IMG/VR virus record: IMGVR_UViG_3300046721_000117
Location: 1-23,051 of that record
Length of the DNA stretch: 23,051 bases
Source: a virus
Strand: one strand, 5' to 3'
Part shown: positions 14,853 to 23,051 of the stretch, piece after piece
Layout: each line of letters begins with the position of its first letter
Position numbering within the stretch: position 1 is the stretch's first letter
The notes under the pieces: generated by a model
Told to the model about the DNA's origin: nothing
Databases searched by the model: none
Seen by the model: only the letters and a program-made list of their open reading frames with translations
Made by a program: the position numbers and the translations under genes

Positions 14853-15848
14853 ATGCCACCGCTCCCCGAAGGCTCGGCGGCGAATCCGTACAAGGAAAAC
14901 CCGCCAACGCATTTTGTCGAAGTCCACTGGGCGGCCGGCCTCGCCGTCAAATGGAATTACTCGCAGTTCATGTATCGCGACGGCGCATTGCCGGTTGCCA
15001 ATAGCCCGACCGGTACGATGAGCGTGTGGCTTAAGTTCCACCCGGATCTGGCGGGCTACGGGGCCGGCGTGGCATCGCTGTTCTTCAGCGGCTGGATGGA
15101 TTTCGAGGTAACGACCCGGAACGATTTCAGGACACAGGTGGTCTTCGACCCGGTCACCTACGCCTATCACAAGTTCAAGTTTTCGCCGGCCAGCGCCGAG
15201 GCGTTCTTCGGCACGGGGCCGAATACTTTCGGCTATCTGGTCGATAACAACGCCGCGTTCCCGGCTACCGGCACTTGGTATCACCTCTTTGCGCAATGGG
15301 ACACGGGCGCCGGCACGCTGGTGATCAAGGTAAACGGCGTGACCGTCGGGACCGCCGCCTATCCCGGCTCCGCGGTAATTCCCGGCGACCTCGGGTTCCC
15401 GTTCGATGTGTCGTGGGCTTATCCGACCAACGACGACCTTTCGCCGAACTCGTCGCAGTTTCTCAGCAACGCGAACATGGAAGACGTGGTGCCGACCGGG
15501 TTCTCGATTGCCGAATATTGGATGGACAACACGGCAGGCACGACACTCACCGTCGACAAGTTCGTGGATCTGACGACCGGCCGGCCGAAGCCGCTCGGGA
15601 CGAACGGCGAGCTGCCGAAACTGCCGGCAACAGGCGACACCAGGCCGGCCTTCTTCTTCGCGCGGAGCGGGGCGCCGCAGACGTTTGTGGCTAACCGCGG
15701 CTACGGCGGCACCTTCCAGTTCGCGCGCGGCCACTACGGCAGCGATCTGAGCTTTACCGTCGAGGACATCGCCGACCCGGCCACCGACCCGCCGCTCGAC
15801 GAGCCGGACAACCCGCACTACACGCCAGCAACGGCATTGGCAGCATGA
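14853..15848 (+). CDS. Lectin-fold (ConA/LamG-like) tail protein, candidate receptor binder
   Basis: A 331-residue, beta-rich protein beginning directly after the previous TAG. Between about residues 50 and 240 it shows the jelly-roll hallmarks 'TGTMSVWLKFHP', 'TWYHLFAQWDTGAGTLVIKVNGV' and a late 'FSIAEYWMDN' strand, the usual order in LamG/concanavalin-like domains. These domains bind glycans, so a host-surface role is plausible. It sits beside the S74 fibre and before a second LamG protein. Similarity is by pattern, so the family is moderately sure. Confidence 0.6.
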   Translation: MPPLPEGSAANPYKENPPTHFVEVHWAAGLAVKWNYSQFMYRDGALPVANSPTGTMSVWLKFHPDLAGYGAGVASLFFSGWMDFEVTTRNDFRTQVVFDPVTYAYHKFKFSPASAEAFFGTGPNTFGYLVDNNAAFPATGTWYHLFAQWDTGAGTLVIKVNGVTVGTAAYPGSAVIPGDLGFPFDVSWAYPTNDDLSPNSSQFLSNANMEDVVPTGFSIAEYWMDNTAGTTLTVDKFVDLTTGRPKPLGTNGELPKLPATGDTRPAFFFARSGAPQTFVANRGYGGTFQFARGHYGSDLSFTVEDIADPATDPPLDEPDNPHYTPATALAA

Positions 15849-17587
15849 CAATCGTTTACCGCACTGATGGCGCCTGGGGCAGCGGCAAGGGCAGCAACCT
15901 GTCGCCGGCCGAAGTCGACGGCAACTTCCACGATGTCGATACCCGCGTCACCACGATTGAGGACAACCCCGTCGAGCCGATCGCGCCGATCGCCATCAAC
16001 ATCGAGGGCTCCGCGTTCACGATGGGGCTGAGCAACGGCGACACGCTCGGCCCGATCGCGATCACCTATCCGATGCCGACCTGGCGCGGCAATTGGGCGC
16101 CGAGCATCGCCTACAACGAGATGGATTTCTTCATCGCGCCGGACGGCGGCCTCGGCGCGGTGATGATCCCGCACACCTCGGCCGCGACGTTCGATTGGGC
16201 GGCGATCGATACCGGCACCAGCCTGCCGGTTTATCGCAAGCTGATCGGTGGCAGCGGCAGCACGCTCGCGCTGGACGGGCTGACCGACGTGACGCTGACC
16301 AGCGTTACCAACGGGCAACTGCTCGCGTATGACGCCACCGCCGGCTATTGGAAGAACGCCACCATCGGCAGCGGCACCGGCACGGTGACCAGCGTTGCAA
16401 CCGGAGCCGGGTTGACCGGCGGGCCGGTGACCACGACCGGCACGATCTCTCTGGACACCATCGCCAATCAGCGGCTGCTTGCCAACATCAGCGGCAGCAC
16501 CGCGGTGCCGATCGCCAACACGATGACGGCAATTCTCGACGCGGTATTCGGCGCGGTGCGCGGCAACCTGCTCTATCGCGGCTCCGGCGGCTGGGCTTCA
16601 CTCACCCCCGGCACCGACGGCAACGTCTTGACGACGCACGGCACTAGCGCCGACCCGGCATGGGCGCCTGCGGCGGGCGGCGGCGCCAGCATCTCGATCA
16701 GCGACACGCCGCCGGGCTCGCCGACTGCCGGCGCGCTGTGGTGGGACAGCGTCGGCGGCCAATTATATCTCTTCTACAACGACGGCAGTTCGTCGCAATG
16801 GGTGCCCTCGAGCAACCAGCCGGGGCCAACGGGCGCGACAGGTGCCACGGGGCCGGCGGGACCATCGGGACCGTGGACGGTCGGCTCGATCCCGTTCGCG
16901 ACCACGACGAGCGCGCTCGGACAGGACAACGCCAATTTGTTTTTCGACGACACCAACAACCGTCTCGGCATCGGCACGACGGCGCCGTCGGACAGGCTGG
17001 ACGTAGGCGGCAACATCAAGATCGGCGCCACTGCGAACGACGGCGTTATCGGCTTTGGCAGTGGAGGCGCGGCGACGACGCAGGGGATCTATATCGGGCG
17101 CAATCTCGACAGCACGTCGGGTCTGAGCATTGGTGGCTATGGCGGCACTTTTTTCCATGCCGTGGACACCTGGAATGCACCAGGGGCGGTAAAAGCGATC
17201 ATCGACAATACCAATACTCGCAACCTTTCCGGCGCCTGGGCGGTCATCTCGGGGCTGGAAACCAAGCAGGATGTCGCGCCGTACACTCGTGGTCTTGATG
17301 CCCTGCTGAACCTCAATCCGGTCGAGTTCCGTTACCGCGCCGGCACCCCGTTTGCCGGGCCAGACGAGCCATCCAAGCCGCTCTTTGGGCTGATCGCCGA
17401 CGACGTCAGGCCGCATGTGCCGGAGATCGTCGGGCAAACGACAATGACCGTCGCTGGCAAGGAAGACGTGCCGGTCGACTGCCTGGAACCGGGCAACTTG
17501 ATTTACGCTCTCCTGAACGCGGTCAAGACATTGAAAGGGGAGATCGACGAATTGCGGGCGCAGTTGGCGCCGCAGGCGAGGCACTGA
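15845..17587 (+). CDS. Tail fibre with C-terminal S74 self-cleaving chaperone domain
   Basis: A 580-residue fibre starting in an ATGA overlap. Residues 1-40 carry 'LSPAEVDGNFHDVDTRV', a common phage-fibre attachment segment. Repetitive Gly/Thr-rich beta stretches follow, then a collagen-like GPTGATGATGPAGPSGP at about 327-343 and 'NRLGIGTTAPSDRLDVGGNI'. From Ser469 the last 112 residues are an intramolecular chaperone (peptidase S74): Ser469 and Lys474 keep the Ser-x4-Lys spacing, with 'GLIADDVRPHVPEIV' and a final helix (LLNAVKTLKGEIDELRAQL). The chaperone trimerises the fibre and then cuts itself off near Ser469. Unusually, Gly rather than Asp follows the Ser. Confidence 0.85.
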   Translation: MTIVYRTDGAWGSGKGSNLSPAEVDGNFHDVDTRVTTIEDNPVEPIAPIAINIEGSAFTMGLSNGDTLGPIAITYPMPTWRGNWAPSIAYNEMDFFIAPDGGLGAVMIPHTSAATFDWAAIDTGTSLPVYRKLIGGSGSTLALDGLTDVTLTSVTNGQLLAYDATAGYWKNATIGSGTGTVTSVATGAGLTGGPVTTTGTISLDTIANQRLLANISGSTAVPIANTMTAILDAVFGAVRGNLLYRGSGGWASLTPGTDGNVLTTHGTSADPAWAPAAGGGASISISDTPPGSPTAGALWWDSVGGQLYLFYNDGSSSQWVPSSNQPGPTGATGATGPAGPSGPWTVGSIPFATTTSALGQDNANLFFDDTNNRLGIGTTAPSDRLDVGGNIKIGATANDGVIGFGSGGAATTQGIYIGRNLDSTSGLSIGGYGGTFFHAVDTWNAPGAVKAIIDNTNTRNLSGAWAVISGLETKQDVAPYTRGLDALLNLNPVEFRYRAGTPFAGPDEPSKPLFGLIADDVRPHVPEIVGQTTMTVAGKEDVPVDCLEPGNLIYALLNAVKTLKGEIDELRAQLAPQARH

Positions 17588-18147
17588 TGGCGATCAATTT
17601 CCCCGACGCGCCGACCACCAACCAGATTTACACCGTCGGCGCCGCGTCGTGGAAATGGGACGGCGCCAAGTGGCTGGGCGTTAGCGGCGCTGGCGACGTT
17701 GTCGGGCCCGGCAGCGCGACTAGCGGCAACCTCGCAACCTACAACGGCACGACCGGCAAGCTGATCGCGGACGGCGGCACTAGCATTGCTACGCTGAAGC
17801 AGGAGGTGATCGAAGTCGCGGCCTCGGATGAGACGACGGCGCTAACCACCGGCACGGCGAAGCTAACCTTCCGCATGCCGTTTGCGCTGACCCTGACAGC
17901 GGTGCGCTCCAGCCTGACGACCGTCAGCAGCTCGGGCCTTGTCACCGTCGATATCAAAGAGAGCGGAACCACGATCCTATCGACGGCGCTATCGATCGAC
18001 GCGACGGAAAAGACCAGCACGACCGCAGCAACGCCCGCCGTGATCTCCGATGCCGCGCTCGCCGACGACGCCGAGATCACGATCGACATAACGGCTGCCG
18101 GGACCGGTGCCAAGGGGCTGAAGGTTACCCTAATCGGCACCCGCTGA
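17587..18147 (+). CDS. Fibre-associated structural protein
   Basis: A 186-residue protein with a TGATG start. The N-terminus 'INFPDAPTTNQIYTVGAASWKWDGAKW' is a short beta motif often found in phage tail fibre and appendage proteins. The C-terminal part (about 75-186) is Thr/Ala/Ser-rich beta structure (LTFRMPFALTLTAVRSSLTT). It lies between the S74 fibre and a LamG protein, so it is probably part of the same host-recognition appendage. I cannot assign a specific family to the second half. Confidence 0.6.
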   Translation: MAINFPDAPTTNQIYTVGAASWKWDGAKWLGVSGAGDVVGPGSATSGNLATYNGTTGKLIADGGTSIATLKQEVIEVAASDETTALTTGTAKLTFRMPFALTLTAVRSSLTTVSSSGLVTVDIKESGTTILSTALSIDATEKTSTTAATPAVISDAALADDAEITIDITAAGTGAKGLKVTLIGTR

Positions 18148-18848
18148 TGCTGCTCAATCCGTTTTGGTTTGCACCGACTGTCGCGACCGACCCAAATTTC
18201 GCCAGCGTCGTTCTGCTGTGCCATTTCGAGGGAGCAAATGGGGCGACCGGCGCGGCGGCGTTCGTCGATAGTTCATCGAAGGCTCACACGTTTTCCGCCG
18301 CGACGTTGTCGCTTACGACGGCTCAGCAGAAATTCGGGGTTTCATCGGTAGGTGCGACCGGCCAAAGCCTCGCGCTTTCGGACAGTGCCGATTGGGATCT
18401 TGGCGCCGGCCAATTCACCGTCGAGGTTTGGGCGCGGCCGACTACGGCCATCACCGGCATTGACGCATTGGTTGGGCAATACAGTTCCGGCTCGCAGAAT
18501 TGGTATTTAGGATTTAACGGTAACAACCTTGTGTTTACTTACAGCACGACCGGGACATCCAACGTGGCCGTATCCGGGGCATATACTGTAACATTAAACA
18601 CCTGGACTCATTTTGCCGCCGACCGGGACGCCAGCAATGTGCTCCGGGTTTACGCCAACGGGGTTGTGATTGCGTCGGCTACGGTGGCTGCGACATTTTT
18701 TAATTCCACGACGTTTTTAGCGATTGCCGATCTCTCGACCGGCACGAATACTTTCTTCGGTCAGCTTGATGATCTACGCATAACCAAAGGCGTTGCCCGC
18801 TATGCCGGCGCGTTTACGCCGCCCACGGCGCCATTTCCGAACGCATGA
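18147..18848 (+). CDS. LamG/concanavalin-like domain protein
   Basis: A 233-residue protein that is nearly all one LamG-like jelly roll (about 20-225): 'SVVLLCHFEGANGA' at the start, 'GQFTVEVWARPTT', 'TWTHFAADRDASNVLRVYANG', then the highly characteristic 'GQLDDLRITKGVARYAGAFT' ending. Such domains occur in phage receptor-binding and appendage proteins and bind carbohydrates. The start overlaps the previous stop (TGATG). Codon use is noticeably more AT-rich (for example TTT, TTA, AAC/AAT runs near 18500-18720) than its neighbours, suggesting recent acquisition. Confidence 0.82.
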   Translation: MLLNPFWFAPTVATDPNFASVVLLCHFEGANGATGAAAFVDSSSKAHTFSAATLSLTTAQQKFGVSSVGATGQSLALSDSADWDLGAGQFTVEVWARPTTAITGIDALVGQYSSGSQNWYLGFNGNNLVFTYSTTGTSNVAVSGAYTVTLNTWTHFAADRDASNVLRVYANGVVIASATVAATFFNSTTFLAIADLSTGTNTFFGQLDDLRITKGVARYAGAFTPPTAPFPNA

Positions 18849-19418: not shown

Positions 19419-19573
19419 GTTGCGGTGAGGCGTCGGGTGGGTGGCAATGCCCGCCTGGCGCCGCCTTCAAAGATAGGCGCCCGAGCGACGCGCCGGCTTG
19501 ATAGCGCCGGCCAAAAGATTGATTTGAGCGGCCACGCCCGGCAAGCTTGGCATACCGACCCGCCGCCGAGGGC

Positions 19574-19580
19574 TTTTACA
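19574..19580 (+). repeat. Candidate integrase arm-type site, left (P) arm
   Basis: TTTTACA, identical to three heptamers on the right side of the tRNA-Phe fragment and in the same orientation. It lies about 47 bases left of the core. In this GC-rich region a repeated T-rich heptamer stands out. Confidence 0.5.
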
Positions 19581-19593
19581 TTCGGCATCTCGG

Positions 19594-19606
19594 TAAGTGT
19601 TTGATT
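19594..19606 (-). promoter_or_regulatory. Candidate IHF site between P arm and core
   Basis: The 13 bases read TAAGTGTTTGATT, a full match to the reverse complement of the IHF consensus WATCAANNNNTTR. It lies between the left arm heptamer and the att core, where a bend is needed to bring arm-bound integrase to the core, as at lambda attP. Confidence 0.5.
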
Positions 19607-19626: not shown

Positions 19627-19671
19627 CTGAAAATCCGTGTGTCGGTGGTTCAATTCCGCCCCTGGGCACCA
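19627..19671 (+). other. attP core: 3' half of tRNA-Phe (anticodon loop to CCA)
   Basis: The fragment starts at the anticodon loop CTGAAAA (GAA anticodon at 19629-19631, Phe). It continues through TCCGT, then the T arm (GGTGG, loop TTCAATT, CCGCC, with one G-U pair), the acceptor strand CCTGGGC, A and CCA ending at 19671. The 5' half (acceptor GCCCAGG-type strand, D arm, 5' anticodon stem) is absent upstream. Temperate phages that integrate into tRNA genes carry just such a 3' portion in attP, so that integration rebuilds an intact tRNA. Adjacent integrase supports this. Confidence 0.85.
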
Positions 19672-19708
19672 AGTTTTTCAAGGAGTTATCGGGTGAGGCC
19701 AATATCAA

Positions 19709-19739
19709 TTTTACACCATTTTACAAAATTGGTTTTACA
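19709..19739 (+). repeat. Three tandem candidate arm-type sites, right (P') arm
   Basis: TTTTACA occurs at 19709-19715, 19719-19725 and 19733-19739, spaced 10 and 14 bases apart, between the att core and the integrase stop. Same-strand tandem sites near one helical turn apart are how lambda-type P' arms are built. With the left copy at 19574 this makes four identical heptamers in about 170 bases. Confidence 0.6.
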
Positions 19740-19759: not shown

Positions 19760-20833
19760 TTACCCCCGCGGATTGAGCCGGAGGATGGCCGCCTCGCCGA
19801 GTTCGTCGCGGTTGGCCTCCTGCGAGTAAAGCGTCGCCATCGCCAGCGTCCGTTGGCCGAGCATGGCGGCGATCTCGTGCGGCGAGGCGCCGAGTTCGGC
19901 CAGGGTCGAGGCCGCGGTGTGGCGCAGCCCGTGGAAGGTCAGGCCCGGCATCACCTCGCCCGCGACTTCCAGCTTGTGAATCAGCTTCCACAGCATGGTG
20001 CGAAAGCCGTCGGGCGTGTACGGTTCGCCCCGCGATCCCAGCACCAGTTGTAGATGCTTAACACCGTCCCCGGCCGCTGTTGCTGCCAGAGCTTCGTCGA
20101 GGATGGCGCGCAACTGCGGCGCCGCGGGAAGCCGGATCGGCGCCCCGGTCTTGCCCTGCACCCAGGTCAGGCGCTCGCCGTCGTAATTGAGCCGGGTCGC
20201 CCGCAGCACGTCGCCCTCGCGCATGCCGGCGAACATGCCCAACCCGATCGCGACCTTGAGTCCCCCGGCGGCCGTGCCCAGCACGACATCGCACTCGTAA
20301 GGAGCCCAGCGTCGATTCGCCTTCGGCGTCCCGTGCGGACGCTTGATCTTCAGCCGCTTGTCGGCGAGCGGGTTGACGTCGATGTAGCCGTAGAGCGTCG
20401 CCCAGTTCAGCACCAGACGCAGCACCGTGACGCAGTAATTCGCGAAATGCCGCTTGTGCTTCTCGGCCGCGACGTTGCGTATTTCAAGCGCGTCCTTGAC
20501 CTTGAAATTCAGCACCAGCTTCCGCTCGGCACCGGGGCGCAGGAACAGAAATATCTTCTCGTAGTCGGCGCGCGTCCGAATCGCGAGGCCGCGAAACTCC
20601 GGGCTCCTGCGGTATGCTTCGAAGAGACTGGCGAGAGTGCCGCGCAGCGGTGTGTCGGCAGGGCGGCCGGTGCCGTTGAGGCGATCGACTTCGGCCAGGA
20701 ACTCAGGCGAGCCGATTTCGGCGGTGAGGCGGGTCTTGGTCTTGCGGTGATAGGCGCGGGTGACCCCGTCTTTTTTGTTGGTGATCAGTTGGACGCCGGG
20801 ATAGCTCCGGGCGTTATTGGCAAGCATAGCCAT
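19760..20833 (-). CDS. int: Tyrosine recombinase integrase
   Basis: A 357-residue integrase. The start at 20833 is chosen because GGAGG lies 8 bases upstream (minus strand); a frame open to 20944 has only a TTG there. The N-terminal part has an arm-binding-like region (NARSYPGVQLITNKKDG) and a core-binding SAM-like domain at about 60-160. The catalytic domain has Arg205 (GMREGD), Lys228 (VQGKTGAP), His301 and Arg304 (FHGLRHTAAS) and Tyr336 (ATLYSQEANR). The usual His of the 'LGH' motif is Gln327 here (LGQ). It would recombine the adjacent att core with the host tRNA-Phe gene, helped by the excisionase-like protein for the reverse reaction. Confidence 0.93.
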   Translation of the reverse strand: MAMLANNARSYPGVQLITNKKDGVTRAYHRKTKTRLTAEIGSPEFLAEVDRLNGTGRPADTPLRGTLASLFEAYRRSPEFRGLAIRTRADYEKIFLFLRPGAERKLVLNFKVKDALEIRNVAAEKHKRHFANYCVTVLRLVLNWATLYGYIDVNPLADKRLKIKRPHGTPKANRRWAPYECDVVLGTAAGGLKVAIGLGMFAGMREGDVLRATRLNYDGERLTWVQGKTGAPIRLPAAPQLRAILDEALAATAAGDGVKHLQLVLGSRGEPYTPDGFRTMLWKLIHKLEVAGEVMPGLTFHGLRHTAASTLAELGASPHEIAAMLGQRTLAMATLYSQEANRDELGEAAILRLNPRG

Positions 20834-20922: not shown

Positions 20923-21174
20923 TCAACGCAGCGCCTTTGACCAATCAACGCCGTCGTCGGATTGCATCTCGGCAATCCCCGATTGGCGATCGAGCCAACG
21001 GTCGAGCGCCCGCAGATCGTAAAGATTGCGGTTGCCAAATACCCGCAACGGCGGAATGCCGACCCGTGCCTCGAAATTTTCCGGGCCGACCCCGCAATAA
21101 GCCGACGCCTGTTCCTTGGTCAAAAGGCGCGGGGTCATTCCCGGCGGCAATCTGCTGTGGTGATCGCGGGACAT
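20923..21174 (-). CDS. Excisionase/AlpA-like DNA-binding protein
   Basis: An 83-residue protein with a MerR-like/HTH_17 winged-helix pattern at about 15-60: 'RLLTKEQASAYCGVGPENFE', the Pro-Pro turn, then 'VFGNRNLYDLRALDRWLD'. Such proteins act as recombination directionality factors or small regulators. ATG 21174 follows the previous stop by 5 bases; a longer frame from 21216 would overlap the upstream gene. Location next to integrase makes excisionase the most likely role, but regulator of int is also possible. Confidence 0.78.
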   Translation of the reverse strand: MSRDHHSRLPPGMTPRLLTKEQASAYCGVGPENFEARVGIPPLRVFGNRNLYDLRALDRWLDRQSGIAEMQSDDGVDWSKALR

Positions 21175-21178
21175 CGGC

Positions 21179-21376
21179 CTAGCCTGAACCGCGTTCGAGT
21201 CCAAAGATCGAGGCAATCCGGCGCTCGATCGCGTGCCGCAGCAGCATCAACTCGCTTTCGCGGGCGTGGACCGCTTCCAGCAACCGCTCCAAGTCGTCGG
21301 CCCCCAGACCGAACCCGCTAACGACGACGCCGAGCGCCTCGGCGCGCTCGAATAGATGAGATGAACGGCTCGTCAT
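21179..21376 (-). CDS. Small helical phage protein, unknown
   Basis: A 65-residue protein. ATG 21376 overlaps the stop of the YkgJ-like gene (ATGA), which is why it is preferred to 21406. Most of the chain is predicted helical and charged ('DDLERLLEAVHARESELMLLRHAIERRIA', split here over residues 27-55), possibly a short coiled coil. I recognise no family. Confidence 0.55.
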   Translation of the reverse strand: MTSRSSHLFERAEALGVVVSGFGLGADDLERLLEAVHARESELMLLRHAIERRIASIFGLERGSG

Positions 21377-21978: not shown

Positions 21979-22472
21979 GCCGCCTCCGCTACCGCGGTGA
22001 TCGGCGCGACGAGCGAGGCGATGTAGCCGAGGACTGCGTCCTTCGATGCCCCGAACGTCTGGCGGTCCATCGCCCGCGCGCTCTGGGACCGGGCCGTCAG
22101 CATGACGACCGTGGAGGCGGACACATTCACCACCGCATATTCGTCAATAGGCCGCAGGAAAGCCGCAACGCGCAGAGCTTCGGCGTGGGATCGGCACTCC
22201 ATCGAGCGCTGGTCACAGTACCCGGTCATGCATAGCGCGTGTTTCCGGAGATGATCCGGCGACGGGAAACGCTCGGCGAGATGCGCCGGCAGCTTGTCGA
22301 AGGCGTCGTTGATAGTGGCGAAATAATGCGCCTGGCTGGCGGGCGAGCGATCCATCCACGGCTCGAGGCGATAGGTCCGCCCGAGCTGGAACGCCTTCTC
22401 GGCGGCGCGCGAATCAAGCGGCAGCATACCGATGCCGGTCCACCGAAACACCAGAGCCGGCGGGCTAGGCAC
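21975..22472 (-). CDS. Early phage protein next to ERF, unknown family
   Basis: A 165-residue protein if started at GTG 22472, which overlaps the ERF stop by 8 bases; ATG 22499 (35-base overlap) and ATG 22430 are alternatives. 'LVFRWTGIGMLPLDSRAAEKAF' is followed by an acidic/aromatic middle ('YRLEPWMDRSPASQAHYFATINDAFDKLP', split over residues 35-63) and 'LRKHALCMTGYCD'. The end is hydrophobic and Ala-rich. It looks like a globular phage recombination-operon protein, but I cannot name a family. Gene neighbours suggest DNA metabolism. Confidence 0.6.
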   Translation of the reverse strand: MPSPPALVFRWTGIGMLPLDSRAAEKAFQLGRTYRLEPWMDRSPASQAHYFATINDAFDKLPAHLAERFPSPDHLRKHALCMTGYCDQRSMECRSHAEALRVAAFLRPIDEYAVVNVSASTVVMLTARSQSARAMDRQTFGASKDAVLGYIASLVAPITAVAEAA

Positions 22473-23051
22473 TGGCGTACATTTCCTGCTTGCGAGCATT
22501 AGCGAGGGTCATCAGCCGATCGTAGTGCGCCTCGCTGACTTCCTTAATGATCGGCAAAAACGAGTCGCTGTTCGCCTTGATCAGCTCGTCGATCATATTC
22601 GGTGTGCCGGCGTGCTGGATGGCGGTCCTGATCCGCTTGTAGGCATCCTCGGCCTCGGTCTTCCGCGGATGATCAGAACGGGATGCGGGCCCGGGATCAT
22701 CACGCATCTGCGGCTGGCGTTGCTCGGGGCGGCCGGCAGACGCCTCGCCATCATCGTCGTCTTGCCAGACACCAGCCATCGCCATGAGCGCGTACCGGCG
22801 CAGATAGGAGATCACCGAGCCCGCGCCCTGCGCGTCGAATTTCGTCGGCACGATAAAAAGGCCGCTCTCGATCCATTGTCCCGACTTGTGAACAAGTCGA
22901 GTCATTACGCCGATGCTGGAACCCTCGCCGTTGACGGCCATCTGGACTATGGCGATGCCCTGTTTCGCGAGCTGCGGACGCACCTCGTCGAGGACTGCGC
23001 CGAGCGTGGCATACCGCGATCTAAAGTGCGGGTTCGCGCCGTCCTTCCCGA
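22465..23051 (-). CDS. erf: ERF-family single-strand annealing protein (5' end outside window)
   Basis: A partial gene. The frame stays open to the window edge, and the bases at 22984-23049 read KDGANPHFRSRYATLGAVL then DEV before RPQLAKQGIAIVQM, the ERF N-terminal signature, so the real start is beyond 23051 and GTG 22983 is internal. ERF proteins (P22 Erf type) anneal complementary single strands during phage DNA circularisation and recombination. Further hallmarks are 'SGLFIVPTK' and 'QGAGSVISYLRRYALMAMAGV'. The C-terminal half is charged and linker-like, then helical. It is the first visible gene of the leftward operon. Confidence 0.9.
   Translation of the reverse strand, partial: GKDGANPHFRSRYATLGAVLDEVRPQLAKQGIAIVQMAVNGEGSSIGVMTRLVHKSGQWIESGLFIVPTKFDAQGAGSVISYLRRYALMAMAGVWQDDDDGEASAGRPEQRQPQMRDDPGPASRSDHPRKTEAEDAYKRIRTAIQHAGTPNMIDELIKANSDSFLPIIKEVSEAHYDRLMTLANARKQEMYASA

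Follow-up and report, generated by a model that had tools for sequence, protein, structure and literature searches.

Candidate integrase arm sites around a tRNA-Phe attP change in concert and covary with two integrase residues

Four copies of the heptamer TTTTACA stand beside a tyrosine integrase gene in a viral contig, which raises the question of whether they are the arm-type sites of that integrase and, if so, which parts of the protein might specify their sequence. The contig, referred to in its entirety as the window, is IMG/VR record IMGVR_UViG_3300046721_000117 (23051 bases, linear). A sequence-only reading had noted three same-strand copies within 19709-19739, with spacings of 10 and 14, and a fourth at 19574 across the core; all four proved to be exact matches on the + strand (19709..19715, 19719..19725, 19733..19739 and 19574..19580). 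They fall within 166 bp, and a fifth copy is absent from both strands of the 23051 bases, compared to a mean of 0.39 and a maximum of 3 copies in 100 dinucleotide shuffles. Read on the int strand the heptamer is TGTAAAA. When the 550 bp surrounding the end of int were screened without bias for any repeated 7-mer, this word also ranked first, and neither 100 dinucleotide shuffles of that region nor 39 control windows from the contig produced a score as high. A fortuitous cluster of A+T-rich words in a region of low GC would be eased by a short A+T-rich stretch, in which an A/T heptamer might readily recur; given these scores, and relatives that keep the same positions with different words (see below), we attach a negligible probability to it. 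A literature search found no earlier report of this arm word, and the matches returned for TGTAAAAC with attP were set aside as seemingly unrelated, probably the M13 forward primer.

Between the far heptamer (19574) and the other three lies a 45-bp segment (19627..19671, +) that equals the 3′ end of tRNA-Phe(GAA) base for base, running from the anticodon loop through CCA; the comparison was with the intact tRNA-Phe(GAA) gene of relative L077. Neither Rfam nor ARAGORN called an RNA gene in the window, consistent with a tRNA that is only partial. Since phage genes occupy both sides of this core (lectin-like and others to the left, the integrase and early genes to the right), it corresponds to attP rather than to a prophage end, and its location next to int is that of a tRNA-targeting integration module. 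Identity to tRNA-Phe starts at the anticodon loop in the window, L003 and L004, from which we infer a crossover in that loop; the putative 7-bp overlap is accordingly the loop sequence CTGAAAA (19627..19633, +), where the identity begins. Two 10.3-kb contigs (L057 and L079) carry two copies of the tRNA-Phe core and look like integrated elements with both ends present. Two 11-kb Synechococcus phage records (OM868077.1, 2372-2430; PP438433.1, 619-677) also contain 61 bp with 84% identity to the tRNA-Phe core region. To the left, the tail-region genes of the window (15845-18848) encode a Peptidase_S74 chaperone domain as well as a lectin-like Laminin_G_3 domain.

The integrase gene (19760..20833, −; 357 aa from the ATG at 20833; PF00589, phrog_1) encodes a catalytic domain matching PF00589 (E 4e-11), with the GLRH and C-terminal tyrosine region conserved in the integrase alignment. 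Its family profile matches lambda Int (1z1b, E 3e-21), which is also the closest structure to the full-length model (1z1b, E 5.9e-13). The arm-binding region is predicted to adopt a beta-beta-beta-alpha arrangement (pLDDT about 79); Pfam gave no convincing model for this domain, and a sequence comparison with the lambda domain gave no match. A fold search of the domain alone returned lambda Int 1z1g first but weakly (Z 2.9 at rmsd 7.0, level with WW domains) amid WW-domain-like noise, and was not taken as evidence. Given this weak fold match and the missing sequence match, we do not claim homology to the lambda contact residues. Elsewhere in the window, an Erf-like single-strand annealing protein is encoded at 22465-22983 (−; phrog_2324, E 7e-25).

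At the level of motifs, IHF-consensus sites separate the arms from the core on both sides. Specifically, an H′-like site TTTCAAGGAGTTA (19676..19688, +) with 1 mismatch to WATCAANNNNTTR lies at −58 to −46 from the centre of the anticodon loop, and an H2-like site AATCAAACACTTA (19594..19606, −), an exact match, lies at +24 to +36; a further exact match AATCAATCTTTTG (19512..19524, −), at +106, is off the position seen in relatives (+68) and possibly arose by chance. Across 24 tRNA-Phe att loci the motif matched 24 times on the int-side arm compared to 2.8 in shuffles, always between −20 and −14 relative to the tRNA end, and 9 times on the far side compared to 0.87. On the int strand the arm words of the window start at −109, −95, −85 and +50 from the centre of the anticodon loop, so that the outer, middle and innermost P′-like copies span −109..−103, −95..−89 and −85..−79 from the overlap centre, and the P-like copy +50..+56. 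The order of the attP is three P′ arms, H′, core, H2 and one P arm, as in lambda; repeated arm sites, 3+1 copies of TGTAAAA, flank the core. Run on lambda as a control, the layout script recovered H1, H2 and H′ with 0 mismatches and placed P1, P2 and P′1-3.

The same order of arm, IHF and core sites characterizes the lambda Int/attP system (P1, P2, P′1-3; H1, H2, H′)(PMC4880445, eLife 2016), in which int likewise adjoins the P′ arm and the three P′ sites are about one helical turn apart. The window differs from lambda in its arm word (TGTAAAA versus the CAGTCACTAT type), in the more distant H′ and P′ sites (46-109 bp versus 32-83), in the nearer H2 and P arm, of which only one is seen, in its tRNA-Phe target, and in an arm-binding domain with no detectable sequence similarity. 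Its three-plus-one arm count equals P′1-3 plus P1. This is the set that lambda uses in integration. The lambda-like arrangement of P′123 plus P that the sequence-only reading had described is thus real, and it is shared by relatives with the same integrase; its proposal that the heptamers are candidate integrase arm sites gains support from this layout, from the IHF-like sites, and from the concerted changes of word in relatives described below.

We hold with high confidence that the window contains a temperate-phage attP at the 3′ end of tRNA-Phe, in which the four heptamers are integrase arm-type sites with lambda-like bending; as far as sequence can tell, the TTTTACA heptamers are very probably docking sites of the integrase. 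The phage would integrate into the 3′ end of the tRNA-Phe gene, with the N-terminal domain of the adjacent integrase binding three heptamers on the int side and the fourth across the core, and DNA bending would come from the IHF-like sites that flank the core. Each integrase could then bridge one arm site and one core site, as in lambda, with strand exchange occurring within the anticodon loop, and the phage core would restore the tRNA after integration. The host is probably an alphaproteobacterium, since related integrases, phages and plasmids are found there.

To place these sites in a wider family, we drew on 157 distinct integrases from viral scans and genome searches; a single-sequence search of genome contigs with the integrase gave no match, and a profile search of them yielded only relatives at 29-31% plus one short match at 43%. 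The relatives carry two to three int-side and one to two far-side copies of a single word, many of them two plus two. The far arm begins at +49 or +50 from the overlap centre in 10 of the 12 loci scored, and in one of the two non-fitting loci, L003 (= L014), the core had been mis-located by the script and arithmetic gives +49; int-side arms are mostly near −85, −95 and −105. The words themselves (TGTAAAC, TGGCAAA, TGTATAA, TGTCTAA, TGTCAAA and TGGAAAA) are swapped together at nearly all sites. Int- and far-side copies alike read TGGCAAAC in L004, TGTCTAAC or TGTCTAGC in L076, GTCTACAC in L023, TGTACAA in L123, and TGGAAAAC in L166 and L171; L003 carries TGTAAAC but a far copy of TGTAAAA, L134 has one direct and one inverted copy on the int side, and in L156, whose sequence stops shortly past int, TGTATAA is seen on the int side alone. 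The sequence-only reading had named heptamers that are not conserved in relatives with the same integrase as an outcome that would count against it: layout and positions are conserved, while the literal heptamer varies even at 75-79% integrase identity, so that, read strictly, this outcome is what the relatives show. Insofar as the words change together, along with two N-terminal residues of the integrase, this pattern favours specific recognition despite the non-conservation of the heptamer. Separately, L169 combines TGCAAAAC near int with TGGAAAAC on the far side and has N at the first specificity position, a mixture that could represent a transitional state.

The inverted loci bear on a different reading, in which the heptamers are operator or excisionase (Xis) sites through which a phage regulator controls int or directionality. 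Direct repeats are typical of such sites too, and a candidate excisionase or directionality factor is encoded adjacent to and upstream of int (20923..21216, −; phrog_66, E 7e-6). However, copies occur on both flanks of the core at constant distances from the overlap, and L185 and L224 have arm words, spacing pattern and tRNA core all reversed in orientation with respect to int, the pair spaced by 40 bp being the one nearer int (the arms of L185 lie at −5, +35, +189 and +211 from its int stop). Words, spacing and core having inverted together, the words are part of the att site rather than of the gene. Moreover, the best association of the word is with two residues of the integrase arm-binding domain, as detailed below, and we consider the regulatory reading highly improbable. 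Inverted words also occur in L191, L196 and L210.

Assignment of the heptamers as arm-type sites leads to the question of which residues might read them. Grouping N-terminal sequences by word indicated that residues i and i+2 of strand one track the word, and the resulting residue-word rule was fixed before further loci were fetched. In the window these are Q15 (residue 'a', codon 20789..20791, −) and I17 (residue 'b', codon 20783..20785, −), both in predicted strand one of the arm-binding region, so that their side chains would share one face. With a word caller blind to the protein, both word and residues were available for 57 integrases: KY occurred with TGTCTA in 13 of 15; a second residue that is aromatic other than Y (KF/QF/RW) with TGTCAAA in 13 of 14; KV with TGGAAA in 7 of 7; and Q/H/W/F followed by V/I/P with TGTAAA in 10 of 11. 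KT and KS accompanied TGGCAAA, and ET accompanied TGCCAAA. The two KY misfits, L286 (the same site called from the opposite strand) and L076 (mis-called), were corrected by hand before the tree and column tests. Within the sampled family, base 3 is G with K, T with Q/H and C with E at the first residue (second residue non-aromatic), and base 4 is A with V/I/P and C with an aromatic residue or S/T at the second. Exceptions occur among later main-scan loci, namely L390 (QAV, TGGCAAA) and L295 (KRF, TGTCTAG), and L183/L187 have Q at the second position with TGTCAAA.

The association suggests that two integrase residues may decide which arm word is used, and Q15 and I17 would accordingly determine the central bases of the window's own word. 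The rule, derived by comparing sequences, is correlative, and it could be a by-product of ancestry, with real arm sites and clades that differ independently in both word and residues. Raised association appears in other columns too, and TGTCAAA comes mostly from one clade. Mutual information with word bases 3-5 was ranked over 323 columns of 43 non-redundant integrases, and the two strand-one columns came first (I17, z 10.9) and second (Q15, z 7.5); catalytic-domain columns share the ancestry common to all columns, which makes this ranking a partial control. Independent pairs on a tree built without the N-terminus were all concordant in three tests (3:0, about 3.5:0 and about 4:0), yet these underpowered tests fell short of significance (p 0.125-0.25). 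Word and residues nevertheless switch together among the closest relatives, with QI and TGTAAAA in the window, KT and TGGCAAA in L007, QQ and TGTATAA in L156, and KY and TGTCTAA in L076; a near pair shows QRI with TGTAAAA (L251) versus KRV with TGGAAAA (L392).

The rule was also compared with five further phage and plasmid elements, taken from phage and plasmid collections outside the scans behind it. All five have H-x-V/I and the predicted TGTAAAA/C, which addresses one line of the rule only. TGTAAAA accompanies H-x-V/I in L408, L410, L414/L415 and L416, its carriers being Bradyrhizobium p195_1, Rhizobium phage RHph_N3_2 (four copies), Mesorhizobium phage vB_MseS-P1, and RHph_Y48 with its close relative RHEph27; RHph_N28_2 (L412) has TGTAAAC. 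In the other records fetched the arm word was not callable or the N-terminus was unalignable. Given the column ranking, the joint switching among the closest relatives and these five elements from separate records, we regard the ancestry reading as unlikely. We favour, with moderate confidence, a simple readable code in which bases 3 to 5 of the arm word are specified by a pair of alternating residues on a beta strand, lineages can switch all sites while keeping the geometry, and the arm sites of integrases not yet characterised are predictable from the protein.

A precedent exists in cluster K mycobacteriophages (CrimD, Anaya and Adephagia), where the authors linked a base change in the arm site to residues 17 and 19 of the integrase N-terminus(PMC3203893), an i, i+2 pair analogous to that of the window family. 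That study concerned two close variants of one site, with pairs inverted across the core(PMC3203893); the present family is divergent, spans at least 7 word types at constant geometry, and comes with IHF sites and a check against additional records. The IntS integrase of ICEMlSym(R7A) resembles that of the window in being an alphaproteobacterial tyrosine integrase whose attP, of 283 bp, holds several P/arm sites, but differs in its arm consensus TGKTGGTATC and its five sites(PMC11963761). The type of system is already known, with an arm word that had no earlier report in the papers searched; the concerted switching and the candidate two-residue rule amount to more than one attP annotation. Joint evolution of integrase and arm-site specificity is poorly sampled, the precedent found being a few close mycobacteriophages, and the window integrase family offers dozens of natural integrase/arm-word pairs with fixed geometry and a small set of candidate residues. 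Should the rule hold, it would allow attP sites to be annotated from sequence, and integration vectors that do not interfere with one another could be selected for alphaproteobacteria.

A more distant integrase group (L044, L105, L110, L043, L065 and L069) is also found with the 3′ end of tRNA-Phe; its IHF-like sites are at −36 and +32 rather than −19 and +62, which suggests a crossover in the T loop. GTCCCAC-type relatives (L103, L117, L032 and L068), whose IHF-like sites have different offsets, were left out of the analysis, and are probably a different group that uses the T loop.
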